A stretch of 64,000 nucleotides of DNA from Chitinophagaceae bacterium (GTDB lineage: Bacteria > Bacteroidota > Bacteroidia > Chitinophagales > Chitinophagaceae). Within the stretch, counting starts at the first letter, position 1; each line of letters begins with the position of its first letter. The stretch covers positions 124,001-188,000 of the forward strand of contig JALHNJ010000002.1 in the NCBI GenBank assembly GCA_022843585.1, given 5' to 3'. The notes beneath the pieces are model-generated. The model did no database searches and was not told the DNA's origin. It saw nothing but the letters and a program-made list of their open reading frames with translations. This document shows positions 9,063 to 53,231 of this stretch, one piece after another. The translations under genes and the position numbers were made by a program.

Positions 9063-9281
9063 TGAATTACTGTTTTATTCCAACTTACTTATCTTGTCTA
9101 AACTAAGTTGATACAAAAAAGTGAATAGATAATTATATTTTGATAAAGTGCTGGTATTTCTACTTGAAACAACCTTTTAAAGAGATGGAAAGAAAGGCCC
9201 AATAGTAAAGATATCAAACAGAAATTTGTGAAATGAAATGACAATAGTGTTAAATCGGCAAAATGACAAACAGTAAAATTA
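9063..9281. other. Intergenic region upstream of the envelope operon
   Basis: 219 bp between the LytTR regulator gene and the four-gene operon that runs in the same direction. It probably contains that operon's promoter. I see no clear TAnnTTTG element or terminator. Confidence 0.3.
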
Positions 9282-10001
9282 TTAATTACGTTTAAATAGC
9301 TTTTTATTAATTTTTGTAATAAGTTCATCCTTGTAGTTCCTGCTAACAGGCAGAATAACATCTGCTACCTTGATGTCGTATTCATCAATACTATTTATTT
9401 TATCAATTGGCACCAGGTATGATTTATGAATTCTGATATAGAAGTCTTTTGGAAGGTACTCTTCTATACCTTTCAATGTGATATAAGTAATAAATTTTTT
9501 TGCAGTGGTATGGATCGTAACATAGTTCCCCATAGCTTCAAAATAATTCACGTCTGCAAAATTTATTTTCTCAATTCTCTGGTTGCATTTAACAAAGAAA
9601 TATTCTGACTTTAGATAAATTTCCTGCTTGCCATTTTTTTTCAATTCGTAAAATTCTCTTGCCTTTACTACTGCCTTAGTAAATCTTTCAAATGTGACTG
9701 GCTTTAATAAATAATCCAGCACCTCAAGTTCAAAACTTTTAAGAGCATACTCCGCATAGGCAGAACAAATTATAACTATTGGCGCTTTTTTTAGAGTTTC
9801 CAAGAATGTAATCCCGGACATTTTGGGCATTTCTATATCGAGAAATACAATGTCAATATTCTGAGTGGTAAGTATTTCAAGAGCTTCTATAGGGTCCTCG
9901 GCTTTGCCAGCCAGTTCCAAAAACCAAGTCTCATTAATATGGTCTTCCAAACCCTTTTGGGCCAGCGGTTCGTCATCAATTATCACTGCTCGTAACTTCA
10001 T
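9282..10001 (-). CDS. LytTR-family response regulator
   Basis: 239 residues. The receiver domain (1-120) has the acidic pair D9-D10, phospho-acceptor D55 in FLDIEMP, and the YLLKPV lysine switch. A LytTR DNA-binding domain follows (about 136-236: NYFEAMGNYVTIHT, FIRIHKSYLVPIDKI). It overlaps the kinase gene by 4 bp (ATGA), so the two are translationally coupled. The next genes downstream, 219 bp away on the same strand, are the likely but unproven target. Confidence 0.95.
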   Translation of the reverse strand: MKLRAVIIDDEPLAQKGLEDHINETWFLELAGKAEDPIEALEILTTQNIDIVFLDIEMPKMSGITFLETLKKAPIVIICSAYAEYALKSFELEVLDYLLKPVTFERFTKAVVKAREFYELKKNGKQEIYLKSEYFFVKCNQRIEKINFADVNYFEAMGNYVTIHTTAKKFITYITLKGIEEYLPKDFYIRIHKSYLVPIDKINSIDEYDIKVADVILPVSRNYKDELITKINKKLFKRN

Positions 10002-11074
10002 TCCATTTCCAATTGAAGATTAATAATAAAATGATCACTACCAGGTTCAATTGTAAGCTCATGCTTTCCCTTGAATTGTAATTCCAGCCTTCGTTTGATA
10101 TTGCGTAACCCAATTCCACCTGTTACCGATTGATTGGTGATATTGCCATTGCTCAAAATAGTGTTCTCAACTCTAAATGAAAGTTTTTTTTCTTGAATTT
10201 TCATATCAATTAACACAAAGTTGTCTCTATGCTTATCATTACTTATAAACTTAAATGCATTTTCAACAAAACCTATAAATAACAAGGGTGGTAGATATAT
10301 ATCTTCAGTATGGGAAGGATAGTTAAAAGCAACCCGATGCCTTTCACTTTTACGTAGTCGCTGTATATCCACATAGTTCTGTATGTAGTCAATTTCTTTA
10401 GCAAGACTTACGGCAGGAACATTGCATTCATATAACTGATAGCGAAGCATCTCAGAAAATTTTGTAATTGTTTCTCGTGCATTTTTATTCTGGCGATCTA
10501 TTTGAACATATATGGTGTTGATTGCATTGAATAAAAAATGAGGGTTTATCTGTGCGATAAGGTATTTTACTTCGGTTTGAAGTTTTGTGATTTCGATTTT
10601 ATTTAATTCTATCTGCTGATAAAAATGCTGTTTGGTAAATTTTAATGCAGTTGTACTTCCTAAGTACCAAAAATTGCTGACAAACTGTGTAATAAAATAA
10701 TAGATCTTATCGCTGCTGCTTCTTATTTCATCACCAGGTTTGATTACAGATTGCATAAATGCATCGTCAGCAAAATAAAGAAGTACTGCAAATAATAAAT
10801 TATTGAGCAAAAAGACCAGTATATATAGAAACACCTTCTTTTTTTTGTAAATAAATAAAGGTATCAAACCATACAGGTTGATATAAACCATTGCCACCAC
10901 AAGTAAAAATTTGATAAATAACATGAAGATAAAAATCTTCCACCCATATTTTTCAGGGAGAGCAGGCTGTACCAATATATAACCGCCGATTACACAAAAC
11001 CAAAAAAGCAAGTGTAAGCGAATTCTTGACCTGGTTAAAAAAAAAATTAGTTTTTCGAATTTTTCGATTTGCAT
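9998..11074 (-). CDS. LytS/YehU-type sensor histidine kinase
   Basis: 358 residues. The N-terminal half has about four membrane segments (LLFWFCVIGGYILV, IFMLFIKFLLVVAMVYI, VFLYILVFLLNNLLFAVLLY and one more). It is followed by a short coiled coil and the His-kinase box QINPHFLFNAINTIY, with the phospho-His near residue 178. The ATPase part carries FVENAFKF (N box) and GGIGLRNIKRRL (G box). This is the 5TM/HisKA_7 class that pairs with LytTR regulators. It is the first gene of the pair. No sensor domain beyond the membrane segments is visible. Confidence 0.93.
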   Translation of the reverse strand: MQIEKFEKLIFFLTRSRIRLHLLFWFCVIGGYILVQPALPEKYGWKIFIFMLFIKFLLVVAMVYINLYGLIPLFIYKKKKVFLYILVFLLNNLLFAVLLYFADDAFMQSVIKPGDEIRSSSDKIYYFITQFVSNFWYLGSTTALKFTKQHFYQQIELNKIEITKLQTEVKYLIAQINPHFLFNAINTIYVQIDRQNKNARETITKFSEMLRYQLYECNVPAVSLAKEIDYIQNYVDIQRLRKSERHRVAFNYPSHTEDIYLPPLLFIGFVENAFKFISNDKHRDNFVLIDMKIQEKKLSFRVENTILSNGNITNQSVTGGIGLRNIKRRLELQFKGKHELTIEPGSDHFIINLQLEME

Positions 11075-11323
11075 AATTTATGAATAAAGTTAATTTATTA
11101 TGCTATTGAATGCTTTTAATTTGATAAGATGCTGACTCTACCTGATAAGGTGTTATTGCTGATAATGCAATATCATTATCTGGTTTCTTTAATTATAGTA
11201 GAGGCAATCGAAAAATAACTAAATTTTCTACTTCTATTCCCCTTCATGGCATCCGCAAAAAATAAAACCAAAAGAGACAATCCAAACGCCGCTGAAAGAT
11301 TGATTAAATAACAAGACAACGAG

Positions 11324-11362
11324 TATAATAAAAATAAGCCCCTGTATGGAATGCAAGGGCTT
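11324..11362 (-). terminator. Rho-independent terminator of the small AraC gene
   Basis: On the minus strand a AAGCCC / GGGCTT stem (arms 11357-11362 and 11336-11341) is followed by ATTTTTATTA. It lies 59 bp past the stop of the AraC gene at 11421. The region 11075-11420 holds no other convincing feature. Confidence 0.5.
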
Positions 11363-11420
11363 AGAATATGTTCACAGTTGTCTTTATATATTCTCAATCT
11401 TTCAGCAATCACCTCACTTT

Positions 11421-11819
11421 TTAGGAATCCTGGGCATTCACCATTCCTAATTCAACATTAACTCCCCACTCATCATTCACCCCTCGCCTCCTAAACTCCC
11501 CTGGGTTCACCCCCACCACGGTCTTGAAAGCCGCCTGGAAATTCACCCCTTCCGTATACCCCACGAGATCCGCGATAGTAGCGATCGTATAATTAGTAGA
11601 CAACAACAATTCCTTCGCCTTTTCCATCCGCACCCTTCGCGAGAATTGAAACACCGATTCACCATATGACGCACGGAAAACATTTTTGAGTGTGTGGGAA
11701 TTGGTGCCGATCTTTTTCGCCAGCGCAGGGATCGAATCATAACAGCGCAGGTCAGCTAAAATTAAATTACGGGCTTGCTCAGCAATTTCCTTAGATGTAG
11801 GAACAGAAAAGTTAACCAT
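11421..11819 (-). CDS. Small AraC-family regulator (DNA-binding domain only)
   Basis: 132 residues from ATG 11819, or 146 from ATG 11861. Nearly the whole protein is an AraC DNA-binding domain: IPALAKKIGTNSHTLKNVFR for the first HTH and TIATIADLVGYTEGVNFQAAFK with VGVNPGEFRRR for the second. No ligand domain is present, so it may act constitutively or sense through a partner. ATG 11819 is preferred because AGGGGAG lies 15 nt upstream on the coding strand. A terminator-like hairpin follows the gene. Confidence 0.85.
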   Translation of the reverse strand: MVNFSVPTSKEIAEQARNLILADLRCYDSIPALAKKIGTNSHTLKNVFRASYGESVFQFSRRVRMEKAKELLLSTNYTIATIADLVGYTEGVNFQAAFKTVVGVNPGEFRRRGVNDEWGVNVELGMVNAQDS

Positions 11820-11990
11820 AGATTTAAAAAAGCTCCCCTCCGCATGTGCCTTACGGGGCAATGGGAAGAGAGCAGGTCACCAACCAAAACTTAAGATGTA
11901 AATCAGTTGACCAGGGACGGAATAGATTATTTTTTTAAATTGAATAAAATAAATGTACGGTCACAAATCCCGCATACGCATTAAACTATT

Positions 11991-12560
11991 TTAAGAAATT
12001 CGCTGACCCTTTACTTTACTCAGCATCACTTCACTCATACCGATCCACGACGCTAAGTATTTAGCAGGAATACGCAATAAAAATTCAGGATAATGCTCTT
12101 GCAGCCATGCATATTTTTCGGTGGCCTGTTGCATGCGTAATCCAAATAATTGTTTCGCGGTAAGCCGGTAATAATTTTGTAACAACTCTCTGCCGGTCCA
12201 GTTGAATTCAGGATAGGTACGATAGATATAATAAAGATCTTCATAGCTGATGCACCAGAGACGGGAATCTTCCAGTGCCTGTATAAATTCATGACTTGCC
12301 GTACGGGTATGAAAACTTTCCAGCGAAACAATGAGATCTTGTTCTTTCATGAAGGCGGAACATACCTCTGTATTTCTTTTCAAATAAAAGCTTCGAAGTA
12401 ATCCCTGTTCGATAAAATATACATGACGGCAGACATGACCTGCCTTCAGTAAAAATTCTTTTTTGTTCAATTCACGCAGTGTCATTACGGAGAACAGGTG
12501 ATCCTGGAGTGCGGGCGACAGTGGGTGGAACTGTTGTAAAAAATGCAGGACTTGCTCCAT
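11991..12560 (-). CDS. Crp/Fnr-family transcriptional regulator
   Basis: 189 residues. A cyclic-nucleotide-binding beta-roll spans about 10-120 (LLKAGHVCRHVYFIEQGLLRSFY), followed by a long helix and a truncated C-terminal HTH (IPAKYLASWIGMSEVMLSKVK). This short form is common in Bacteroidota and usually senses an unknown ligand. The canonical cAMP-contacting residues are not evident. It is a single gene, separated from the small secreted-protein gene by a 240-bp divergent region. Confidence 0.9.
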   Translation of the reverse strand: MEQVLHFLQQFHPLSPALQDHLFSVMTLRELNKKEFLLKAGHVCRHVYFIEQGLLRSFYLKRNTEVCSAFMKEQDLIVSLESFHTRTASHEFIQALEDSRLWCISYEDLYYIYRTYPEFNWTGRELLQNYYRLTAKQLFGLRMQQATEKYAWLQEHYPEFLLRIPAKYLASWIGMSEVMLSKVKGQRIS

Positions 12561-36833: not shown

Positions 36834-36856
36834 ATGCATAATAAAATATTATGCAT
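36834..36856. promoter_or_regulatory. Palindromic operator before the S8 protease operon
   Basis: ATGCATAATA-AAA-TATTATGCAT has perfect 10-bp arms around a 3-nt spacer and ends 22 bp before the protease start codon. The position suits a repressor operator overlapping the promoter or the 5' leader. No copy was noticed elsewhere in the window. Confidence 0.6.
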
Positions 36857-36878
36857 CTATCTTGAATAAAATAATCAA

Positions 36879-38684
36879 ATGGACGAGAAAATAATTGAAA
36901 TACTCATTTTCGGAAAATATGACAGAAGCCCCCGGTATACGCAGGACTCTCCAATATATCCCGACGTATGGATGGAATATTTCAAACATATTTCCATGAT
37001 TGATACCTACCGGGTTGACCTTATTCTGACACCCCATAAAAAATCATCAGCCTCGGAATTGATATCCGAGTTGGCATCTCCCCTGGATGATGCAGGCATT
37101 TTAGAACGGTTTGAAATAGCAAGCAATGGCGATACCGTGGTGGCGAAAATGACTTTTGCAGAACTGATTCATTTTGCTTTGCCGCTCACAAACTGGTGGA
37201 AAAACTATCTTACTATTGATGGCGAATTTACAGATGATTATCGCTGGTTAGCAAGACTGGTTGGTGCATTTCAACTTACCAGTAAAGATTTCAATCCGAC
37301 CGAATCTGGGCTTCCTGAAATTTTGGATGTATTGGAAAAGGAAGGCACCAAATTTATTAGACAAAATTTATCCCTCTTTTGGCCTAAAGAAGATAGTCCA
37401 AAACTTTGGGCGGTCAGCAAGAACCGCCCCGCAACCCTCTCTATAGAATTATCTGTTCCGGCAACAAAGGCAGATGCAGGTCGCCGTCTTTTTGATATAG
37501 ATGGGTCCGGGATCACCTGGGCTGTTTTGGATACCGGTATAGATATTACCCATAAAGCATTCCGGGCCATTGACCCTACAACTAAATTACCCTATACAGA
37601 ACCGTTAGGCCCCTCCGATAGCCGGGTTTCCAATTTCACCCGGATCATTGCGACCTATGAATTTACCCGGTTCAGAAGTTTGATTGCGGGGATTCTTTCG
37701 AACCCTGAACAAATGAAGGTTTGGAATAATTTCTCCATGCAACCAACCAGTACGGATAGAGACGCACCCTTAACAACTACGCAGATCAATGATTCGATTA
37801 ACAATGTGTACCGGGACCTGGAGAAAGGAAGAATGTTGGACTGGTCGGTTATAGCACCACTGTTACGAATTCCCCACAACATTTCAGATTACAGTTGGCC
37901 TGCACATAAACATGGGACTCATGTTGCTGGTATTCTTGCAGCCAACCAGGATCCAAAGGAACCGGGAAGAAAATTAATTGGAATGTGTCCAGGTATTCAA
38001 TTGTATGACATCCGCGTATTGGATGCAAATGGTTTCGGTGATGAATTTAATATTCTGGCGGCTATTCAATTTATCAGGTGGATGAATGCACAGCGGGATG
38101 GCATCGTGATCCATGGTATCAACCTGAGTCTGTCCATGAAACATGAAGTAGATAGTTATGCCTGTGGACAGACTCCGGTATGTGACGCCTGTGAGCGGTT
38201 AGTTTCAGAAGGAACAGTTGTAGTAACCTGCTCCGGCAATCAGGGACAGTCCATTTTCAAGTCAAAGGAACTGGGAGAGATCGACGGATTCAGGACAGTA
38301 AATATTACTGACCCTGGAAATGCGGAAAATGTTATTACAGTCGGATCAACTCACCGTAACCGTCCGCACAGCTATGGCGTTTCTTATTTTTCAAGTAAAG
38401 GCCCCACGGGTGATGGAAGAGTGAAGCCAGACCTGGTTGCTCCGGGAGAAAAGATCATGTCAACAGGTTTTAAGAATAAATCTGAACGGATGGATGGTAC
38501 ATCCATGGCAGCCCCGCATGTTTCCGGTGCCGCTGCACTTTTAATGGCTAAGCACAGGGAACTGATCGGCAAACCAAAGAAGATCAAAGAGATCTTGTGC
38601 AAGACCGCAACGGACCTCGGAAGAGAAAAATATTTTCAAGGTTGCGGAATGCTGGATGTACTCAGGGCGATACAATCTGTATAG
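36879..38684 (+). CDS. Cytoplasmic S8 (subtilisin-like) serine protease
   Basis: 601 residues. The catalytic triad is complete: D218 in WAVLDTGID, H345 in HKHGTHVAG and S542 in DGTSMAAPHVSG, with the oxyanion Asn at N454 (CSGNQG). There is no signal peptide, so it acts in the cytoplasm. The first ~205 residues form a non-protease domain (starting EKIIEILIFGKYDR) that could be a sensor or inhibitory pro-domain; I do not recognise it. A ~115-residue insert separates the Asp and His regions. An MBL hydrolase follows 19 bp downstream and a TPR protein after that. A conflict or regulated-proteolysis role is inferred from this partnership. Confidence 0.93.
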   Translation: MDEKIIEILIFGKYDRSPRYTQDSPIYPDVWMEYFKHISMIDTYRVDLILTPHKKSSASELISELASPLDDAGILERFEIASNGDTVVAKMTFAELIHFALPLTNWWKNYLTIDGEFTDDYRWLARLVGAFQLTSKDFNPTESGLPEILDVLEKEGTKFIRQNLSLFWPKEDSPKLWAVSKNRPATLSIELSVPATKADAGRRLFDIDGSGITWAVLDTGIDITHKAFRAIDPTTKLPYTEPLGPSDSRVSNFTRIIATYEFTRFRSLIAGILSNPEQMKVWNNFSMQPTSTDRDAPLTTTQINDSINNVYRDLEKGRMLDWSVIAPLLRIPHNISDYSWPAHKHGTHVAGILAANQDPKEPGRKLIGMCPGIQLYDIRVLDANGFGDEFNILAAIQFIRWMNAQRDGIVIHGINLSLSMKHEVDSYACGQTPVCDACERLVSEGTVVVTCSGNQGQSIFKSKELGEIDGFRTVNITDPGNAENVITVGSTHRNRPHSYGVSYFSSKGPTGDGRVKPDLVAPGEKIMSTGFKNKSERMDGTSMAAPHVSGAAALLMAKHRELIGKPKKIKEILCKTATDLGREKYFQGCGMLDVLRAIQSV

Positions 38685-38703
38685 GTTAATTTAAAATAAA
38701 ATT

Positions 38704-39882
38704 ATGTACTTCAGTCTTGAGATCCTGCAAGCCCATCATGGTGATTGCTTATTGCTGCATTATGGAACCAATGCAAATCCACAGTTGATCGTGATCGATG
38801 GTGGACCCAATACTATTTATGATGATTATCTCCGTCCACGATTAAGTCAGATCAGGGAGAACAGGGGATCTAATCCATTACCTATTGCCATGGTAATGGT
38901 GAGTCATCTCGATGATGATCATATTAATGGGATAGTCAGTTTGTTTGCAGAACTAAGAGAGGCTGATGAAAATGGAGACCAGCAAGAGTTTACAATAGCC
39001 AATCTATGGCTGAACACTTTTGATGATATCCTGGGAAATGTCCAACTCCCTAAGATCTCCGCATTGCCCGCCTCTGCCAGTAGTATTGATGTGGATGCAT
39101 TAAACCTCGAGGGAATGGAAAACGCAGACAGTGATACAAAAGCAGTAATTGCGGCTACAGGTCAGGGTATTGAAGTCAGGAATGCTGCCCGGCGACTTCG
39201 TATTGAACAAAACTTCCCCTTTAAAGCAAAGCAGGGCATGGCAAAGATAGTGCGAGGAGATATTGAAGAGTCCGTAGTTGACATAGATAATAATCTTACC
39301 ATTACCGTTTTGTGTCCAAGCGAAAAACGCCTGCAATCTCTTCAAAAGAAATGGGATGCTGATCTCACAATATTAAAGCAGAACGGGAAATACAATGCGA
39401 TACCTTCTTCCGTTGTTGCATGGGATACAGCCGCCTTTAATGTATCGAGCATCGTATGTGTCGTAGCACTCGGTGAGCAACGCATGCTGCTGACGGGTGA
39501 TGGAAGAACCGATGATACATTAAAAGGTCTGGAAGAAAAAGGACTATTGACGGCAGATGGTACGATTGAATTTGATATTGTAAAGTTGCCTCATCATGGA
39601 AGTGCGAGGAATATCAGGGAAAATTTCTTTGAACGTGTCACTGCCAAACATTGGGTGATCTCGGCAGATGGATCGAACGACAATCCAGATACAGCTGTAT
39701 TGAAATTTATTTCCGACCATGTTACCGAAGGTCATATCTGGATAACGAACCGGGAAGGAGAACACGGATTGAAAACCAAGCTCACAAAATTCCTGAACAA
39801 TTGTAGTAATGATGTGACGGTACACTTTCCGGAAAATGAAAGTTCCCTGCTAATCAATTTGGATAAAGTGGTTGATTTTTAA
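38704..39882 (+). CDS. ComEC-like MBL-fold metallo-hydrolase
   Basis: 392 residues, no signal peptide or membrane segment. The MBL signature has the ComEC/Rec2 form H68-x-D70-x-D72-H73 (SHLDDDHINGI). A later KLPHHGSARN near residue 294 gives the family's HHGS motif, and WVISADGSND supplies another expected strand. The early GDCLLLHYG ... LIVIDGG also fits. ComEC-like soluble MBL proteins are predicted phosphodiesterases or nucleases. It is coupled to the S8 protease and probably works with it. AVAST type 1 defence systems are known to combine an MBL protein with a protease and a STAND ATPase; here no STAND protein is present. Confidence 0.88.
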   Translation: MYFSLEILQAHHGDCLLLHYGTNANPQLIVIDGGPNTIYDDYLRPRLSQIRENRGSNPLPIAMVMVSHLDDDHINGIVSLFAELREADENGDQQEFTIANLWLNTFDDILGNVQLPKISALPASASSIDVDALNLEGMENADSDTKAVIAATGQGIEVRNAARRLRIEQNFPFKAKQGMAKIVRGDIEESVVDIDNNLTITVLCPSEKRLQSLQKKWDADLTILKQNGKYNAIPSSVVAWDTAAFNVSSIVCVVALGEQRMLLTGDGRTDDTLKGLEEKGLLTADGTIEFDIVKLPHHGSARNIRENFFERVTAKHWVISADGSNDNPDTAVLKFISDHVTEGHIWITNREGEHGLKTKLTKFLNNCSNDVTVHFPENESSLLINLDKVVDF

Positions 39883-39997
39883 ATGTAAAGAGAGAATTTA
39901 TATTCGGATCCTTAAAGGCAAACCACTGCTTTATAACCATCGGTTCTGTGAACTAGCTTCATATCTAGCGTATACCAAGCCATTGGGCTTAGCCTAA

Positions 39998-40019
39998 AAT
40001 AATATGGCAGGATATTATT
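39998..40019. promoter_or_regulatory. Inverted repeat before the TPR gene
   Basis: AATAATAT-GGCAGG-ATATTATT has perfect 8-bp arms in the 224-bp gap between the MBL and TPR genes, 88 bp before the TPR start. It could be an operator or a weak hairpin. It suggests that the TPR gene has some control of its own. Confidence 0.35.
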
Positions 40020-40106
40020 GAAAAATCGAATACTTTGTAGTTCCGTGCTTGAAAGCCCTTTTACCAAAATTATCCATCCAACATTTATAACCGCAATCTT
40101 TTAAAT

Positions 40107-42500
40107 ATGGCAAAGTGGAAAATCAGGCAATTCTCACAAAAATTGAAAAGGACAATCAAAACCTTTTTCCAAAAAATCATCAGGTTAATTTCATACCTGC
40201 GCAGAGGGGCTGCAACACATTTGCGGAATACCAATTCAAAAATAAAAAACGGTATCAAAAATTATGGTCTTGTTCTCCTTACAATCCTCTTTCTTGTTGG
40301 CGCAGGTAACTATATTTTTTTAAGATGGTTCAATACAACTATTTATATTCTTCCATTTGAAATTCCACAGGAATTGGAGAGGAGTGGCATTACCGGCCTG
40401 GATGCTTCAGAAAGTCTTAATTACCATATACAGGACATCCTTACAACAAGTGAAGCAGAATCCAAAACATTTGAAACATCCTTCACTAGTTCAAAATATC
40501 TAAGAAATGTTACTTCGGCCAATTTTACAGATATCTCCGCTAAGGATGTGAAAGTCGAAGTAGGAAATATTTCATTCAATGTTTTGGGAATCAAAGAATC
40601 GGTAATCAGGAAGAAAATAAAAGGGAGAATTTTTGTCGACAAAGACAGTACGCTCTATTGTAAGGTTTCTTTTAAAGGGCAAAATTATACAGCCTCTTTA
40701 AAAAAAGAACTTCAATTGAATTACCAACTTTCAATCCAATCACTCACTTTCCAAATTGCAAAAAGTATTATAGCCGGTTATCAGCCGGTAAATTATCTTC
40801 GGTTTCTTTCAGGATCAGGAGATCACAAAGGCTTCCTGGAATCTGCAACATACTTTATCGATTTTTATGAAGATCCCTCTTTGAAGTTTAGTTTTTATTC
40901 CCTTCTTGCGGATTACTATATCAATATCAATAATCCTGACAGCGTAATACGATATGCAGATAAAGCCCTTGAATTCAAGAAAAAAGATTTTGCAATATGC
41001 CATATAAAAGGGGTCGCCTTATTAAATAAAAACAATAAAGGGGAAGCAAAGGAATGGCTTTTGCAGAGTGTTGGAGCGAAAAGATCCTTTCCAAATGTTT
41101 ACATTGATTTGGGTAATGTTCATTTTCAAAATAAGGAATATGATTCTGCTGCCTTTTGTTACCGAAAAGCGAATGACATTTGGAAACAAACAAATAAAAG
41201 CAAAACTGATTTTTACCCAAGTCTTATGAATCAGGGTACACTGCATGCTCTTAAAAATAATACCGATTCTGCGAGTTATTATTTCAACCGGATAAATGCT
41301 CAATTCCCTGATAGGGATATTTACCTGGGATATTGGCAATGGACGCTGGGAGTTGATTCAACTATGAAAACATGGGAGGATGCCCGGAACAGGGCATGGT
41401 TTCTTGTAAAAAAGGATCCGAACTATAAATATGGATTTTTTTACCTGGGAATATACTATGCTAATGTGGCATTGATTAAAAACCTGGACTCTGCAGAATA
41501 TTACGCAGCAAAGGCTTTAAAGATCGATTCAAATTTTATTGATGGTAAGTTTCTAAAGGCGGAAATTGCAAGCTTAAAAGGAAATTTTATACAAGCCAAT
41601 TGGCTGTATCAATCTGCATTGAATAACAGGTACAATAAAGATATACTGAATGGATGGATAGAATCATTGATTCAAGAGGGGAATTTTGAACTGGCATTAA
41701 ATAAGATCTATTTTGGACTACAGAAAAATATATATGACCCAATTTTATTCACGCAGCGCGCAGAGTGCTATTCATATCAAAACAAAGTTCCTGAAGCAAA
41801 TGCCTATTATGATATTGCTCTTTTACTGAACTCTTCAAATCGAAGAATTCTTTCAAGTTATAGCAGGCATCTGAATCGAAACTCCCGGTTTGCAGAAGCC
41901 ACAAAGTATGAAACCCTCCTGTTAGAACTTGACCCATATGATTTGGATGCCTTTGAACTAATGACGGAGACTTATCTTCAAAGTAATGATAAATATAAAC
42001 TGGAAAGTCATCTCAAAAATGCTGGGGAACGATTCAGCAGTTCATCAATTGTTAATCATTCATTAGCCGATCTGTATAATAAGGCAGGGAATTATGACAG
42101 TGCAATGAAGTATATAAAGAAGCACCTCATAGAAAATCCCACGGATTGGCAAGCACTTTTTTTTAAATCCAGGTTAAATTTTGGAAATGCCAGATTTGAA
42201 CTATCGCTGATTGACTTAGATAAAATTATTAAAAACAATGTATTGAACCCGGAAGTTTTTGTACTGAAAGGCCATTGCCATCAAAATCTAAGAAGGTATA
42301 AATTAGCGATTGTCAACTATGAAAAAGCATTTAAGCTCAATAACCAGAATTGCCATTTATTGGACGCATGGATTCTTGCACTGAATGCAGTATTGCAAGA
42401 CTATAGCTTTCGTCAACAGCACAATTATTACCAGGAACAATTAGGAAGGGTAACTTTCCTAAAAAGAAACAATCATTGTGATGACAATGAAAATAAGTGA
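40107..42500 (+). CDS. Membrane-anchored TPR-repeat protein
   Basis: 797 residues. The N-terminal 52 residues are strongly basic, followed by one membrane helix (about 54-75, GLVLLTILFLVGAGNYIF). By the positive-inside rule the remainder should face the periplasm. Residues ~80-240 form a domain beginning YILPFEIPQELERSGITGLDASE. TPR-like helical repeats fill ~245-780, with recurring patterns such as KEYDSAAFCYRKAN, AGNYDSAMKYIKKHL and RRYKLAIVNYEKAFKLN. Such arrays bind proteins. It is the third gene of the S8-MBL locus and could be its envelope sensor or anchor (inference). Confidence 0.85.
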   Translation: MAKWKIRQFSQKLKRTIKTFFQKIIRLISYLRRGAATHLRNTNSKIKNGIKNYGLVLLTILFLVGAGNYIFLRWFNTTIYILPFEIPQELERSGITGLDASESLNYHIQDILTTSEAESKTFETSFTSSKYLRNVTSANFTDISAKDVKVEVGNISFNVLGIKESVIRKKIKGRIFVDKDSTLYCKVSFKGQNYTASLKKELQLNYQLSIQSLTFQIAKSIIAGYQPVNYLRFLSGSGDHKGFLESATYFIDFYEDPSLKFSFYSLLADYYININNPDSVIRYADKALEFKKKDFAICHIKGVALLNKNNKGEAKEWLLQSVGAKRSFPNVYIDLGNVHFQNKEYDSAAFCYRKANDIWKQTNKSKTDFYPSLMNQGTLHALKNNTDSASYYFNRINAQFPDRDIYLGYWQWTLGVDSTMKTWEDARNRAWFLVKKDPNYKYGFFYLGIYYANVALIKNLDSAEYYAAKALKIDSNFIDGKFLKAEIASLKGNFIQANWLYQSALNNRYNKDILNGWIESLIQEGNFELALNKIYFGLQKNIYDPILFTQRAECYSYQNKVPEANAYYDIALLLNSSNRRILSSYSRHLNRNSRFAEATKYETLLLELDPYDLDAFELMTETYLQSNDKYKLESHLKNAGERFSSSSIVNHSLADLYNKAGNYDSAMKYIKKHLIENPTDWQALFFKSRLNFGNARFELSLIDLDKIIKNNVLNPEVFVLKGHCHQNLRRYKLAIVNYEKAFKLNNQNCHLLDAWILALNAVLQDYSFRQQHNYYQEQLGRVTFLKRNNHCDDNENK

Positions 42501-43722: not shown

Positions 43723-44349
43723 ATGGAGACCAATTCAATTACAATGACCCGGAAAGAGCTTTATGATCTGGTATGGTCAAATTCACTTGTTGCACTTTGT
43801 AAAAAGTATGCGATCTCTGATAACGGGTTACGCAAAATTTGCCAACGAATGCAAATTCCATTGCCCACTAACGGGCTTTGGATGAAGTTGCAGTTTGGGA
43901 AGAAGGTGAAGGTTTTTGCTTTCACCGAAAATTATACAGGTGATATTACTGTTAGCTTATCGTTGCGGACTGGCGGGGATGTTGTTAGTGATAATGCATC
44001 TTCTCTTTTATTAAATGAAATAAAAAATGATACCCGGTTGGTGCTAACAGTACCTGAGCAACTCAGGTATCCGGACGCATTAATTGTCGCTGCTAAAGAA
44101 CTGCTGGCAAAAAAAGATTCTTCCATTCACCAGGGAATGGTATCGAGCTCCCGGGACGGCGGACTTGATATAAAGGTCACTCCTAAAAATGTAAAGCGTG
44201 CCCTTCTATTCATGGATACGCTGATCAAAGGGATCAAAGGACGTGGCGGCAACATTACTTTAAGAAACCGGTTCACTTATGATTGGGGGATATTCTGGTC
44301 AACTAAATTGTGTCAAAAATTGTTTTATCCAAAAGCAAATCGTTTATGA
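43723..44349 (+). CDS. HTH-like protein, truncated paralogue of the 47107 gene
   Basis: 208 residues. The first ~185 residues align with the protein at 47107-48156: RKELYDLVWSNSLVALCKKYAISDNGLRKICQRM is followed by IPLPTNGLWMKLQFGKKVKVF. About 35 bases around GGATGAAGTTGCAGTTTGGG are identical in the two genes. The N-terminus looks like a helix-turn-helix. After residue ~185 the similarity stops and an unrelated 20-residue tail ends the frame, so the C-terminal ~170 residues of the family are missing. It overlaps the next gene by 4 bp (ATGA). It may be a degraded copy or a short functional regulator. Confidence 0.72.
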   Translation: METNSITMTRKELYDLVWSNSLVALCKKYAISDNGLRKICQRMQIPLPTNGLWMKLQFGKKVKVFAFTENYTGDITVSLSLRTGGDVVSDNASSLLLNEIKNDTRLVLTVPEQLRYPDALIVAAKELLAKKDSSIHQGMVSSSRDGGLDIKVTPKNVKRALLFMDTLIKGIKGRGGNITLRNRFTYDWGIFWSTKLCQKLFYPKANRL

Positions 44350-45083
44350 TGACAGAAAATGATTACCACGCAGCACAGGAATTTTTAGGTAAAAAATCTC
44401 ACGGCCTGATGGACCATGAAGATAAACCAATCGCCAAAACAGGTTTTCCGGTTCAGAACTATACAATATATCCAATTCAGGGAAGGATATTTTATGTAGC
44501 AGCTCCCAATGTATTCACACATATTATGATGAAGAATGTATTACTGGAGGCCGTAAAAAAATATCCTGAAAGATTCGGCACTGGTGATGCCTACGATGTG
44601 GTAGAAGCTATTCGGTTAATAGAACCAAGTTTTGATACTACACAGCGGCATGCACAGTTCCTGCAAAACGAGCAGTTTGGTTTCATAATGGAAAATAATG
44701 GTGGTACCATTCAGGATAAAGTTTTACGCATCGATCTTTTCCGTGAGATTAAAGCCAATGCAGGTGGCAAACATGATTTTGTAGGAGGCGTTCTTCATGC
44801 CCTCAAACATTTCTCTTATAAAGGAAGCAATATGGCAACCGGGAAAGATATAAATGATATAGCAGACCCTGAGCAAATAATTGGGTTAGCCATCAAAGCC
44901 TTCTTTATCCCGGAAGAAACAGAACAAACGGCAAAAGGATTTATCGGGCGTATCTCGTTAGACGAAAACTATTGGTTGAAATTCTCCTTTTATCTTGAAC
45001 CGGTAAACGCTGTGCATTTTATTAATACCGTTCACAAAGAGAAAAAAAAGAAAGTGGTAGCTGTTCAGGCTGTGTCGGATTGA
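44346..45083 (+). CDS. Hypothetical protein coupled to the truncated HTH-like gene
   Basis: 245 residues from ATG 44346, chosen because ATGA overlaps the stop of the previous gene. An in-frame ATG at 44310 would overlap by 40 bp. The sequence is soluble with repeated aromatic and charged blocks (QNYTIYPIQGRIFYVAAPN, QDKVLRIDLFREIKANAGGKHDF, LDENYWLKFSFYLEP). I recognise no family. Where the intact paralogue at 47107 has an HNH nuclease as its partner, this protein holds the equivalent slot. It may be an alternative effector, but that is inference. Confidence 0.65.
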   Translation: MMTENDYHAAQEFLGKKSHGLMDHEDKPIAKTGFPVQNYTIYPIQGRIFYVAAPNVFTHIMMKNVLLEAVKKYPERFGTGDAYDVVEAIRLIEPSFDTTQRHAQFLQNEQFGFIMENNGGTIQDKVLRIDLFREIKANAGGKHDFVGGVLHALKHFSYKGSNMATGKDINDIADPEQIIGLAIKAFFIPEETEQTAKGFIGRISLDENYWLKFSFYLEPVNAVHFINTVHKEKKKKVVAVQAVSD

Positions 45084-47106: not shown

Positions 47107-48156
47107 ATGAATAAATTTAATCAAATGGACAAAGAAATATTTACACGTAAGGAATTATACAACATGGTCTGGTCATCATCGTTTGTTTCTTTATCAAAGA
47201 AATACAATATCTCTGACAATGGGTTGCGGAAAATTTGTGTACGAATGAATATTCCTGTACCAAAAGCAGGGCATTGGATGAAGTTGCAGTTTGGGAAGAA
47301 GGTGAAGGTCTTTTTGCTATCGGAAGACGAAACTGTGGATCAAACAGTAACATTGCAATTACGAGTACAAGGTAACGATGACAGCACTAACGATCCCATA
47401 CAAAGGCTAGCGAAAGAAATCCAAGTTGTCATTCCTGAGAGTTTAGTTTCGCCGGATGAATTGGTTGTAGCAGCACAAAAGGTTCTCACTACAAAAGATA
47501 AATATATTTATAACGGCACTCTCCGTACTTATCGTGATGTCTTAGACATTAATGTATCACCTGCCGGTGTATCCAGGGCACTACTGCTCTTCGACGTTCT
47601 TATTAAAACCCTGCGAAGACGGGGACATGGCATCCTCTTTAAAAATGGAGAAACTTTTGCGGAAGTCAAAGGACAAAACCAGCAAATAAAATTGCGGGAA
47701 CAAACGAAAAGAGTAAAAGGTGAAGATCGTTATGCAGAATATGTGCCGACCGGAATATTTTATTTTAAAATTGACCGTTACCCGGATAAAGAATTCAAAG
47801 ATGGCAGCCGGAAGTTAGAAGCAAAGATGGCAGACATTATTGCCTGGATGGAAGTACAAGCAGATAAAGATAATGACCGTGATGAACAATGGAGAATCAA
47901 ACGGGAGCAAGAAAAGTTGGAAGAAGAACGATTGCTTGCGATTGCGCTTGAACGAGACCGTGAGATGCAGCGATACCGTGATCTGGTTGCTGCTGCTGAA
48001 AGGTGGAAGCAGGCGGGGTTGATCCGGGAGTATGTCTCTGCTGTGGGTAGTGCGGATGCTGAATGGGTGGGATGGGCGAGGAAAAAGGCGGATTGGGTGG
48101 ATCCGGTTGTGGCTGCTGAGGATGGGGTGTTGGGGAGGTATGGAGAAAAGTGCTGA
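47107..48156 (+). CDS. HTH-like protein with C-terminal coiled coil (full-length paralogue)
   Basis: 349 residues from ATG 47107; ATG 47125 is also possible. The N-terminal segment RKELYNMVWSSSFVSLSKKYNISDNGLRKIC...IPVPKAGHWMKLQFGKKV looks like a DNA-binding HTH and belongs to a family widespread in bacteria with no assigned role. The middle (residues ~95-250) is an alpha/beta region. Residues ~245-300 form a charged coiled coil (DEQWRIKREQEKLEEERLL). An HNH nuclease gene follows 38 bp later. A truncated copy lies 3.4 kb upstream with a different partner. Confidence 0.78.
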   Translation: MNKFNQMDKEIFTRKELYNMVWSSSFVSLSKKYNISDNGLRKICVRMNIPVPKAGHWMKLQFGKKVKVFLLSEDETVDQTVTLQLRVQGNDDSTNDPIQRLAKEIQVVIPESLVSPDELVVAAQKVLTTKDKYIYNGTLRTYRDVLDINVSPAGVSRALLLFDVLIKTLRRRGHGILFKNGETFAEVKGQNQQIKLREQTKRVKGEDRYAEYVPTGIFYFKIDRYPDKEFKDGSRKLEAKMADIIAWMEVQADKDNDRDEQWRIKREQEKLEEERLLAIALERDREMQRYRDLVAAAERWKQAGLIREYVSAVGSADAEWVGWARKKADWVDPVVAAEDGVLGRYGEKC

Positions 48157-49423: not shown

Positions 49424-51298
49424 ATGTATCTAAGAAGATTACAACTATGGAATTTCAGAAAGTATGGATCAGATACAGCTCTTAACAGGGATGCAGATCT
49501 TACTATGCTATTGCAAGGAGGGTTGAATTTACTCGTGGGGGAAAATGATTCCGGAAAAACCAGTATCCTTGATGCAATAAAGATTATCACATTAACTAGA
49601 AGTAACGAATATATAAGACTACAACCGGAAGATTTTTATCATGCTCCTGGAACTGGGCAACCTGTCAACCGACTAAAAATCGAATGCATATTTACGGGCT
49701 TAAATGATGATGAGGCTAAAAATTTCATTGAATGGCTCTCGGTTCGAGAAGTAAATGGCAAGGCTGAATTTTATCTGCGAATTTTTATCGAAGCTGACCT
49801 GAAAGGAGGAGTTGTTATGCCTTATGACCTAAGGGCTGGTAATGATGACGAGGGTATTGTTCTTACTGCTGGCGCGAAGGATTTAATTCGAGCTACATAT
49901 TTGAAACCATTAAGAGATGCCGAAACAGAGCTTTCTCCGAAAAGAAACTCCCGCTTGTCACAAATTCTCGATAGCCATGATGCATTTAAGAACAAGGTTG
50001 ATCACCCTCTCATAGCGGTTGTCGCTACCGCCAATACCGCAATAAAAAATTATTTCAGGGGCATCAATGAGGCAGGCGAGGTTGAGGCAGGTCATGCAGG
50101 AAAAAATATTACGGATAGCATCAATACTTTTTTAAATGACTTTTTTGGCAGACAAAAGGACTCGGGATTTGAAATTTCTACCCAATCGCTGAAAAACATA
50201 CTAGAAAAACTAGAGCTGATTCTTGAACGGGGAAACAATGGTTTGGGATCTCATAACTTATTATTTATTGCCGCTGAACTTCTACTATTAACTAGGCGAG
50301 AATTTACAGGGCTTCGCTTAGCATTAATTGAAGAGATCGAAGCACATCTTCACCCCCAGGCACAATTGCGGCTGATTGAATACCTTGCTACTGATGCTAA
50401 AAACAATAATATACAACTAATCATTACTTCACATAGTCCCACACTCGCTTCAAAGGTATCAGTAGCCAACATCGTACTTTGTAAAGACAACTGGGCTTAT
50501 TCTTTAGCACCTGAATTTACAGAGTTAAAAATAGGCGACTATGCATTCTTAGAAAGGTTCTTAGATGCAACAAAGGCTAATCTTTTTTTTGCCCAAGGAG
50601 TAATTTTAGTAGAAGGCGATGCAGAGAATATTCTTATTCCCTCAATTGCTCGCATCATCGGGAGGGATTTTACAAAATATGGAGTATCCGTCGTAAATAT
50701 TGGGAATACTGCCTTTAATAGATATTCCAGAATATTTAAAAGAACTGACGGTAAGGCATTAAACATTTCAGTAGCATGCGTTACCGACAACGATATTGAT
50801 CTCGATGCCGGTTTAACCCCTCAAGAAGTCGAGCAAAACCGCACTGCCAAAGCGGCAAAGTATGATGGTCAGAAGGTGAAGACTTTTGTTTCTCCGATCA
50901 AAACGCTAGAATATGATCTTTCGCTTGGCGTGTTACAGCAGGATTTATATCGCTCAGCGCTGTTTGCAAACAAACTAAAAAACAGCGATCAATATGGAGT
51001 GACCTTTACAAAGTATAAACAAGTCAAAACAGAGTTGTCACAACAAGTCGACGCATGGCAGCAGGCTGCTATTACAGATGAACAAAAGGCAAGGCACATT
51101 CTTGGTTATATTGCTAGCAGAGATCTGAAATCAATCACAGCACAATTCTTCGCATTACTGCTTGAACATAGAAATAGAAAAGAAGACATGAAAGCCATTT
51201 TTGTAGCTGACCCTTATTTTGAATATATCATTCAGGCAATCGAATATGTTACCGAACCATTAAATCAGCCCCAAAATGTTCAACCCAATAACGGATGA
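49424..51298 (+). CDS. gajA: Gabija defence protein GajA (OLD-family ATPase-nuclease)
   Basis: 624 residues. The N-terminal ABC-type ATPase has Walker A GENDSGKTS (39-47) and a Walker B/D-loop region IEEIEAHLHPQAQ (about 300). The C-terminal TOPRIM nuclease shows ILVEGDAENILIPSIAR (about 395) and CVTDNDIDLD (about 453), the conserved Glu and DxD metal ligands. This is the OLD nuclease plan of GajA. GajA is known to nick DNA at specific sites when nucleotides are depleted during phage infection. The downstream gene overlaps by 23 bp and encodes the matching helicase, so the pair is a Gabija system. Confidence 0.93.
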   Translation: MYLRRLQLWNFRKYGSDTALNRDADLTMLLQGGLNLLVGENDSGKTSILDAIKIITLTRSNEYIRLQPEDFYHAPGTGQPVNRLKIECIFTGLNDDEAKNFIEWLSVREVNGKAEFYLRIFIEADLKGGVVMPYDLRAGNDDEGIVLTAGAKDLIRATYLKPLRDAETELSPKRNSRLSQILDSHDAFKNKVDHPLIAVVATANTAIKNYFRGINEAGEVEAGHAGKNITDSINTFLNDFFGRQKDSGFEISTQSLKNILEKLELILERGNNGLGSHNLLFIAAELLLLTRREFTGLRLALIEEIEAHLHPQAQLRLIEYLATDAKNNNIQLIITSHSPTLASKVSVANIVLCKDNWAYSLAPEFTELKIGDYAFLERFLDATKANLFFAQGVILVEGDAENILIPSIARIIGRDFTKYGVSVVNIGNTAFNRYSRIFKRTDGKALNISVACVTDNDIDLDAGLTPQEVEQNRTAKAAKYDGQKVKTFVSPIKTLEYDLSLGVLQQDLYRSALFANKLKNSDQYGVTFTKYKQVKTELSQQVDAWQQAAITDEQKARHILGYIASRDLKSITAQFFALLLEHRNRKEDMKAIFVADPYFEYIIQAIEYVTEPLNQPQNVQPNNG

Positions 51299-53231
51299 GG
51301 ATATTGCCAAAGCGGAAGAATTTCTACTACCCGCTGGTGAACATTTCGATGAACAAAGACGGAATATCATCAAATGTCAAGATTCTGTTGATGTAAATGC
51401 TTGCCCCGGAAGTGGGAAGACAACAGTAATGCTTGCGAAGCTTCTGTTACTTTCCTCACAACTACCTATAAAAAGTAATGGCGGAATTTGCGTTCTCACA
51501 CATACCAATGTCGCCATCGATGAAATAAAGGAAAAACTTGGACTTTCTGATACAGTTTTATTTAAGTATCCTAATCACTTTGGAACCATTCAAAGCTTTG
51601 TCAATAAATTCTTAGCAATTCCTGGCTATAGTGTGATGTTCCCTCACAGACGACCTTCCATCATTGATCAAGAATGGTACAACAGCGTTATTGCAAAACG
51701 GTATCCATCATGGCATGGAGCAGGTAAAACATGGATTCAACACAAACCAGACCCGGTGCCGCTACTACAGTCCTATAGATTTAATTCCCAGTTTAACAAC
51801 TTACTAAAAAAAATGAAAGGCGATCCAGTCTTTAATAATAATGGACCCGCCTTACAAAACATTTTTGATTTTAAGATGCGCATACTTCGGGAAGGAATAT
51901 TAAGTTTTGATGACGCTTACTTACTTGCGGAATTCTATATAACAAAATATCCGAAAATCAAGGAATTGCTAACGAAAAGGTTTCCTCTTGTAATAATTGA
52001 TGAAATGCAGGACACCGATGAGAATCAATTAGCTTTGCTAAACCTAATTTTCGATCCTGCTTCGACAGTGGTGCAACGAATAGGAGATTACAACCAGGCA
52101 ATCTATAACAAGGTTACCGAGCAATCAGTTTGGAATATAGGAATCAATACACTTCCTCTTTCAGACAGCCGACGATTTTCCAATGGTATCGCCCAACAGA
52201 TCGATCGCATTTGTGTTACCCCCAGGAATATGAACGGTAATGCTGCTATCGCAGACATTCCATCAAGAATAATTCTCTTTCCACAACAACGTATCAACGA
52301 TGTTATCCCGCATTTCGGAAATTTATTGATTGAAGCCAACATTCCCTCCTTGTCAAAAAAACCTGCTAAGGTTGTCGGATGGGTAAAGGAAACAGAAGCG
52401 GCTGCTGGTCAAGTAAGAAACTGCATTCAAGCATACTGGGCTAGTTATTCTCTTGTCAACAGGGTCACAAGAAAAGACTTTCCAAACCTAGATGAATACC
52501 TAGTAAAACCTGAAGCTGCTATTATTGAAACAAAAGGAACATCCTACTATTGGGATGTAGCTCTCCAGATATTACTAAAATCATTGCGGATTTTGAATGT
52601 CCGTCATGATTCCGGCTCTTATTATTCGAAAACGAGTCTCATCTCGAAATTAAAATTACATCCAGCTTTTTTTGAATTATTTCAAGTTGGAATTATACAA
52701 TGGATTCACCAAATCCACTTAAATCAAAATCCCTTTGTGGCTATTCGTACATTTGTAATTGATCAATTCCTACCGCTATTCAATCTTGTTCCTGATGCTG
52801 AGCTCAATGCTTTTTTAAACAATCAAAATCCACCTTCAATTGTTGTAGCGGCAAACCAACAAGATGCTGGTAATATTTTTAAACACAGTTACGGTGGAAT
52901 TGATCCATGTCATGCTGACAAGCAAGTAGAAATTCCCGTATGTACTATTCATTCAGTTAAAGGAGAAACCCACTCTGCAACACTCTATCTGGAGACGTTT
53001 TATTTCGAAGAGGATATAAAGAAAATTCGACGATACCTAAAGATCGGGGCTGGTGCTGGTATACCCACAACTCAAGTACGAATGATTCAAACATTAAAAA
53101 TGGCATATGTGGCTATGTCAAGACCTATTCACCTTCTTTGCTTAGCAATCAGAAATGATGGTATTACTCAACAGGATATAGATGAATTACAGGCCGTTGG
53201 CTGGACAGTAGATGATACGTTATGTCATTAG
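51276..53231 (+). CDS. gajB: Gabija defence protein GajB (UvrD/Rep-like helicase)
   Basis: 651 residues. Superfamily-1 helicase motifs are motif I at 43-50 (CPGSGKTT), motif II in LVIIDEMQDTDENQLALL (about 238), motif III in VVQRIGDYNQAIYN, motif V/VI near IPVCTIHSVKGETHSATLYLE, and KMAYVAMSRPIHLLCLA. GajB proteins are UvrD-like and act with GajA as the sensor/amplifying partner. The gene starts inside gajA, giving translational coupling. It is somewhat longer than the first-described Bacillus GajB, with extra sequence between the motor motifs. Confidence 0.92.
   Translation: MFNPITDEDIAKAEEFLLPAGEHFDEQRRNIIKCQDSVDVNACPGSGKTTVMLAKLLLLSSQLPIKSNGGICVLTHTNVAIDEIKEKLGLSDTVLFKYPNHFGTIQSFVNKFLAIPGYSVMFPHRRPSIIDQEWYNSVIAKRYPSWHGAGKTWIQHKPDPVPLLQSYRFNSQFNNLLKKMKGDPVFNNNGPALQNIFDFKMRILREGILSFDDAYLLAEFYITKYPKIKELLTKRFPLVIIDEMQDTDENQLALLNLIFDPASTVVQRIGDYNQAIYNKVTEQSVWNIGINTLPLSDSRRFSNGIAQQIDRICVTPRNMNGNAAIADIPSRIILFPQQRINDVIPHFGNLLIEANIPSLSKKPAKVVGWVKETEAAAGQVRNCIQAYWASYSLVNRVTRKDFPNLDEYLVKPEAAIIETKGTSYYWDVALQILLKSLRILNVRHDSGSYYSKTSLISKLKLHPAFFELFQVGIIQWIHQIHLNQNPFVAIRTFVIDQFLPLFNLVPDAELNAFLNNQNPPSIVVAANQQDAGNIFKHSYGGIDPCHADKQVEIPVCTIHSVKGETHSATLYLETFYFEEDIKKIRRYLKIGAGAGIPTTQVRMIQTLKMAYVAMSRPIHLLCLAIRNDGITQQDIDELQAVGWTVDDTLCH

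Follow-up and report, generated by a model that had tools for sequence, protein, structure and literature searches.

The stretch of DNA analysed here, hereafter the window, comprises 64,000 nucleotides (positions 124,001 to 188,000 of contig JALHNJ010000002.1 in the Chitinophagaceae bacterium assembly GCA_022843585.1) and contains a gene for a subtilisin-like serine protease of the S8 family, which is followed by a gene for a hydrolase of the metallo-β-lactamase (MBL) fold. It is highly probable that these two genes represent a conserved unit, and we suggest, with a confidence of about 0.55, that the two-gene S8–MBL unit encodes a gated pro-nuclease activated by a stand-alone subtilisin. This reading is based on the pairing of the genes, the correlated divergence of their products, the family of the MBL enzyme, two blocks of extra sequence in this enzyme and the intact catalytic residues. 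An earlier note on the same DNA had proposed a system of three genes, the third one encoding a membrane protein with tetratricopeptide repeats (TPR). All three are present as it described them (S8 with D218, H345 and S542, MBL 19 bp later, TPR protein with a hydrophobic segment), and the start codon of the S8 gene is the ATG at 36879, not 36834. The features are as follows.

36879..38684, + strand: S8 (subtilisin-like) serine protease, 601 aa; proposed core gene 1 (activating protease)
36879..37493, + strand: N-terminal domain of S8, residues 1–205; without known family
37503..38648, + strand: Peptidase_S8 catalytic domain, residues 209–590; Pfam match
38704..39882, + strand: MBL-fold hydrolase, 392 aa, Avs1a/LmuA/RTasMBL-like; proposed core gene 2 (gated pro-nuclease)
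39016..39210, + strand: MBL insertion 1 relative to ComEC-type YcaI, about residues 105–169 (limits approximate); proposed gating loop
39319..39438, + strand: MBL insertion 2 relative to ComEC-type YcaI, about residues 206–245 (limits approximate); proposed gating loop
40107..42500, + strand: membrane TPR protein, 797 aa, with a hydrophobic segment at residues 54–76 (40266–40334); neighbour gene

Pairing of the protease and hydrolase genes

The S8 gene lies directly upstream of the MBL gene in 11 of the 11 pair loci examined, with gaps from −4 to 39 bp. Four of these loci belong to Bacteroidota (the window, contig C14 of its own genome, and the genomes G086 and G947), and seven are located on plasmids. 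The genome samples of family, phylum, order and class, which overlap each other, yielded S8 rarely: the protein search at E ≤ 1e-30 found it in 2 of 294 family genomes (own and G086), and the profile search at E ≤ 1e-60 in 2 of 396 genomes of the order (own and G947), 3 of 395 of the phylum (own, G423 and G517) and 1 of 295 of the class (own). Both G086 and G947 have S8 followed by MBL. The matches in G423 and G517 were not counted as pairs, being matches to the catalytic domain with a hydrolase as partner, an identity that Pfam supports for the fused protein described below and for locus L104 only.

In the plasmid collection, the best six S8 rows (H1–H6, from the best 30 of 371 matching records) each adjoin an MBL match (H31–H36); the hosts are Miltoncostaea, Rhizobium (two plasmids), Paroceanicella, Methylorubrum and Sinorhizobium meliloti. 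The S8 of the Rhizobium leguminosarum locus L009 is annotated as two open reading frames (ORFs), and this locus was counted as a pair and omitted from the S8 alignments. Among the best 40 of 70 plasmid MBL records, eight further ones are annotated as MBL overlapping S8, and the one inspected (S. medicae, L105) contains the pair. Other examined plasmid MBL rows adjoin partners different from S8, namely Avs1 (two), ABC-three-component (ABC-3C), MoxR and caspase.

The second pair of the window’s genome, on contig C14, consists of a 745-aa S8 of another lineage and a 364-aa MBL separated by 20 bp, without a TPR gene (positions 8764–12116, minus strand, of locus L120, that is G000:C14:12000-30000). 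A class II prokaryotic Argonaute (pAgo; 14467–16860 of L120; PADLOC 2e-251) with its Cas4-like nuclease is encoded about 2.4 kb away.

The two proteins also diverge in parallel, since the correlation between S8 and MBL distances, in which species relatedness is uncontrolled, amounts to r = 0.765 for 8 pairs and 0.823 for 10, and 0 of 10,000 permutations reach either value.

Sequence features of the two proteins

The motifs of the MBL enzyme, SHLDDDH (HxDxDH), LTGD (TGD) and PHHGS, are all present, and ComEC competence proteins are the top PDB matches of an eight-row MBL profile, which agrees with the ComEC-like character that had been assigned to it before. PADLOC was run on 26 window ORFs (the window has 58 ORFs of at least 100 aa), with the best 25 of 150 and the best 25 of 50 matches considered for the two Gabija ORFs mentioned below. 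For the MBL enzyme it gave LmuA (6.8e-52; model PDLC03854, covering residues 2–354), Avs1a (8.9e-36) and the DRT-associated RTasMBL (3.6e-34), and the NCBIfam Avs1a model gave 151.4 bits, under its 420-bit cut-off. Judged by sequence similarity, the enzyme groups with the Avs1a/LmuA-type defence enzymes. The earlier comparison of the protease and MBL genes with AVAST type 1 devoid of its STAND ATPase thus holds: among the PADLOC matches listed for the 26 window ORFs, both flanks included, there is no match to the AVAST STAND model, nor to the Lamassu SMC protein (LmuB) or LmuC.

The extra sequence of the MBL enzyme was measured from alignment positions as the span between the last His of HxDxDH (H73) and the Asn that precedes the TGD strand (N246), or their equivalents. 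It is 173 residues in the window MBL vs. 55 in YcaI of E. coli, i.e., about 118 more; it varies from 149 to 181 in eight close relatives and equals 158 and 201 in two distant S8-associated MBLs, 191 and 200 in two Avs1a proteins and 147 in a caspase-associated homologue (L109). In a sequence-only comparison with one ComEC-type protein, the extra residues form two blocks flanking the conserved P205, as in Avs1a. The automatic alignment placed the YcaI equivalent of P205 at P101, and P128 fits better by eye (46 + 9 residues instead of 19 + 36); because this equivalent is uncertain, we relied on the total span. Residues W102, N104, N170, P205 and W217 are found in each of the 11 S8-associated sequences, in the two Avs1a proteins and in the caspase-associated homologue, and Q154–G155 in the same set except the two distant S8-associated ones. 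Conserved positions in or beside the insertions include P116 (8/9), D144 (7/9), S151 (7/9), Q154–G155 (9/9) and A235 (8/9). In the unrooted tree of 18 chosen MBLs, a branch with support of 1.000 splits the 11 S8-associated enzymes from the seven with other partners, and several deep branches are weak (0.49–0.74).

Members of the same MBL family were also seen beside ABC-three-component genes on a Providencia plasmid (L107:7998-14136) and beside a MoxR ATPase on a Rhizobium etli plasmid (L108:5844-9095). These neighbours suggest further partners for this family of nucleases.

The Pfam match of the protease to Peptidase_S8 extends over residues 209–590 (E = 1.3e-43). Its triad (D218, H345 and S542) and its oxyanion residue N454 do not vary across 7 aligned sequences including the window’s; another S8 (L007, 33% identity over the catalytic part) was dropped as unrelated. 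The absence of a known family in the first 205 residues, claimed before, was corroborated: this part has no Pfam family match, and its nine-row profile gave only two matches in PDB, both with E = 1.1. An I9-like prodomain was considered at the N-terminus and rejected, since this idea came from the sequence pattern alone, with zero database matches behind it. Six residues (V30, W31, A58, P102, W106 and W107) are invariant in 9 aligned S8 N-termini, the window included. This alignment left out two distant MBL-paired S8 proteins (own C14 and S. medicae), and the motifs are therefore not established as general. Judging by its conservation pattern, the strongest candidate for the trigger of the protease is the N-terminal domain, which is specific to the lineage and whose role may possibly consist in sensing, docking or inhibition.

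Proposed mechanism and its alternatives

A mechanism of this kind has been described by Tuck et al. (Science 2025, PMC12799240). In that work, the MBL enzymes from Hachiman and AVAST were shown to be pro-nucleases carrying two insertions, which are cut by a trypsin-like partner at a conserved Ile, while in Canu such an MBL nuclease is paired with a caspase and the cut sites are Gly. Protease gating is demonstrated there for HamM, Avs1a and CanC, HamM and CanC being shown to be DNases, and the authors mention that the nuclease homologues are also found together with proteases from “other diverse families” (PMC12799240). The words “subtilisin”, “subtilase”, “peptidase S8” and “patatin” are absent from its main text. 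No paper on a subtilisin–MBL defence pair was found among the literature matches listed, judged by titles and the beginnings of abstracts in a search that did not cover preprints, and a search for “6A-MBL” gave no match.

By analogy, we infer gating, cleavage and DNase activity of the MBL enzyme, its role in defence and a sensing or inhibitory function of the S8 N-terminal domain. The MBL enzyme would be a dormant DNase with its active site covered by the two inserted loops, and in uninfected cells S8 would be kept quiet, perhaps by its own N-terminal domain. An infection cue would induce S8 to cut the loops, and the opened MBL enzyme would degrade DNA, resulting in the death or arrest of the infected cell. 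In this scheme, the mechanism would be that of HamM, Avs1a and CanC, with the fused trypsin or the caspase replaced by a subtilisin that stands alone, and the pair is probably a variant of a known virus-defence switch which adds a further protease class to it. If this is true, bacteria have enlisted one more, unrelated class of proteases for opening dormant nucleases of the same kind, and proteolytic unlocking of nucleases would be a general principle of bacterial immunity rather than a peculiarity of trypsins and caspases. Since the pair appears to stand alone, it may be a minimal example, with only two proteins providing the sensor, the protease and the nuclease, which makes the question about the trigger directly testable.

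None of the named systems compared here fits the pair, in accordance with part of the suggestion that the locus is an undescribed conflict system; the published protease-activated MBL pro-nucleases (PMC12799240) mean that its kind is not wholly undescribed. AVAST type 1 (Avs1a, the protease–STAND protein Avs1b, and Avs1c) resembles the window in the homologous MBL, the protease partner and the location of the two blocks of extra residues; however, its STAND core is fused to a trypsin-like protease, whereas the window S8 is unfused, no STAND core was found and the gene order is reversed. Membership in this system was rejected due to the absence of a STAND part in the S8 protein and of a STAND match among those listed for the 26 window ORFs, and to the Avs1a score below cut-off. 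Lamassu with an MBL partner is similar in its LmuA but has LmuB SMC and LmuC beside it, and the lack of either among the PADLOC matches listed for the 26 window ORFs excluded it. Canu (caspase CanA, CanB and CanC; PMC12799240) also has a stand-alone protease gene upstream of a two-insertion MBL, and TPR in some loci; its protease is a caspase and not Peptidase_S8, which rules out membership, and the window has no conserved equivalent of CanB and no recognised cut-site glycines. The nuclease–protease Hachiman HamMAB (PMC12799240) shares with our proposal a gated MBL DNase that is opened by proteolysis, but uses another protease class, and neither S8 nor MBL of the window matches HamA or HamB.

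A number of observations weigh against the proposed protease-gated nuclease. The H73–N246 span is also long, 128–160 residues, in four homologues for which no protease partner was recognised in the loci inspected (L106, L107, L108 and L110; one locus with ABC-3C, one with MoxR and two without an assigned partner). The insertions are therefore a trait of the wider family which alone does not prove a protease partner, and this is why our confidence is not higher. In the insertions of the S8-associated MBLs we recognised neither a conserved Ile pair like the published trypsin cut sites nor a Gly pair like those of the caspase. With 41 residues, insertion 2 is also shorter than its counterparts in Avs1a (73 and 77). 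The S8 protein is not fused to a recognisable sensor, and its predicted structure (three-row alignment; predicted local distance difference test, pLDDT, 32) is too poor for use. Two distant S8-associated MBLs adjoin the other-partner group in the tree (support 0.87), so that a single S8-associated clade is not established, and the correlation of divergence rests on distances uncorrected for species relatedness. Genome G1217, where S8 is truncated by the contig end (L006), gave no MBL match at E ≤ 1e-20, and the S8 proteases of a sister clade (loci L100, L102, L103 and L104) are followed by an α/β-hydrolase-like protein instead.

The originally proposed three-gene system, in which the membrane TPR protein would act as a sensor or anchor activating S8, and S8 would then activate MBL, as CanB binds CanA in Canu, now appears quite unlikely. 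The TPR gene is on the same strand, with no gene of at least 80 aa on that strand between it and the MBL gene and no terminator-like site in the gap, although the latter test is weak. Some canu loci also encode TPR domains (PMC12799240), and a TPR-CHAT gene is situated 188 bp upstream of S8 in L006. However, searches with the full-length TPR protein in 294 family genomes and with its first 258 aa in a phylum sample of 316 genomes each yielded one genome, its own. It had zero matches in the plasmid collection and was found in 0 of 3 further genomes carrying S8 or the pair, while the same query recovers the own genome in the family sample. As the protein matched its own genome only, and only once, the other ten S8–MBL loci have no such gene. 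The neighbourhood check set beforehand thus revealed that S8 and MBL travel together and that the three genes are usually not neighbours in homologues, which speaks against the three-gene set. The gap is 224 bp for MBL–TPR vs. 19 bp for S8–MBL. Topology points in the same direction. The TPR protein has many TPR matches and one hydrophobic segment (residues 54–76), with 15 K/R and 0 D/E in residues 1–53 and 1 K/R in residues 77–107. By the positive-inside rule, the protein is probably oriented N-in/C-out with the TPR part facing the periplasm, whereas S8 and MBL both lack an N-terminal hydrophobic segment. A single-sequence structure prediction (pLDDT 37) was too poor for use. The TPR protein was rejected as a core component on the basis of co-occurrence in the family, phylum, plasmid and three-genome searches, and its gene is likely just a neighbour.

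The remaining alternatives concern the role of the pair itself. It is highly improbable that the pair is what remains of an AVAST type 1 or Lamassu system, degraded or split, with the core sensor encoded elsewhere: the MBL enzyme does match LmuA best and Avs1a next, but the protease is S8 and not a trypsin-like domain fused to a core protein, the PADLOC matches listed for the 26 window ORFs include neither a STAND nor an SMC core, intact pairs recur across phyla (with neighbours judged by annotation, not all by PADLOC), and Avs1a lies across the fully supported branch of the MBL tree. Very doubtful too is a housekeeping or peptide-processing protease–hydrolase pair unrelated to phage defence. 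It would agree with the viral contigs, where S8 alone found zero confirmed relatives and the MBL alignment gave two short matches only, and also with the several pair loci lacking a recognisable defence neighbour. Carriage by viruses was considered and rejected; among the viral matches, 80 of the 286 loci confirmed with the S8 alignment were listed and match protease parts at 25–39% identity, and the phage collection gave two distant MBL matches. Against a housekeeping role are the patchy spread (two genomes each of the family and order samples, the own one included in both), the carriage on plasmids, the kinship of the MBL enzyme with defence effectors and neighbours including Gabija, pAgo and a Pycsar-type cyclase with TIR. 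An unlikely option is that the main targets of S8 are exchangeable lytic effectors (patatin, Tle1-like phospholipase or FRG-pYEATS), which it would activate, the MBL enzyme being a regulator or second-messenger hydrolase and not a DNase. Such effectors are adjacent on the same strand in loci L008, L009, L010, L013 and L111, as described below, but the constant partner is MBL, no directly adjacent effector is recognisable in own C14, G086, Methylorubrum (L012) and S. medicae (L105), and the relatives HamM and CanC are DNases according to PMC12799240.

Third genes, sister modules and defence surroundings

Several pairs have a further gene on the same strand. Patatin lies 3 bp upstream in S. meliloti (L013) and 57 bp downstream in G947 (L111), a Tle1-like phospholipase (DUF2235) 7 bp downstream in Miltoncostaea (L008), and FRG-pYEATS directly upstream on both Rhizobium plasmids, at 53 and 83 bp (L009:7823-8923 and L010:7487-8590), its FRG part matching the PADLOC candidate PDC-S15. 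Paroceanicella has a hypothetical gene with patatin farther upstream, and G086 a YARHG/SPOR gene about 500 bp upstream on the same strand as well as a trypsin-vWA gene in convergent orientation. Neither own C14 nor S. medicae shows an effector gene next to the pair on its strand. The genes upstream of the Methylorubrum pair form a Pycsar-type set with its own cyclase. The TIR protein of this set was rejected as a swappable effector, since it has a cNMP-binding and a CAP12/Pycsar TIR domain, has its own cyclase and lies 288 bp from S8.

Such associations are few in number, and they could be incidental. Tentatively, one can imagine S8 as a hub protease which would sense infection via its N-terminal domain and open both the gated nuclease and a second, exchangeable pro-effector (patatin or Tle1-like phospholipase, FRG-pYEATS, perhaps CHAT), i.e., a two-armed cascade with a constant trigger and interchangeable outputs, although we regard this as improbable. 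The varying phospholipase and FRG neighbours would then add the idea of one protease with several outputs.

The S8–hydrolase modules occur on Rhizobium and Rhodococcus plasmids and in one Bacteroidota genome, and the two proteins are fused into one in another (L099). Among plasmid S8 rows, a hydrolase-like protein follows S8 in the seventh (R. jostii) and in the two examined of rows H8–H23 (L103 and L104). The plasmid hydrolases are identified by weak Pfam support in L104 only and otherwise by reading of GHSFG-type motifs. These modules resemble the window pair in the related S8 catalytic domain, in the order of S8 then partner (when unfused) and in genes that are close or overlapping; they differ in the α/β-hydrolase partner and in the absence of the N-terminal VW and WW motifs, which are missing in the three aligned hydrolase-paired S8 proteins (L100, L103 and L104). 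Such a module is possibly a protease–lipase analogue.

The nearest recognised defence system in the window is Gabija (GajA and GajB, 49424–53231, by PADLOC), about 6.9 kb past the TPR gene. This partly justifies the earlier description of the locus as lying just upstream of a defence-rich region, but most other downstream ORFs scanned have no PADLOC match. An exact copy of the Bacteroidota-type promoter TAnnTTTG is absent from both upstream gaps. Between the TPR and Gabija genes, the ORFs at 43723–45083 and 47107–48156 match no PADLOC model, and the two at 43723–45083, whose N-terminal region was compared by eye, look like the halves of a relative of the protein of 349 aa encoded at 47107–48156.

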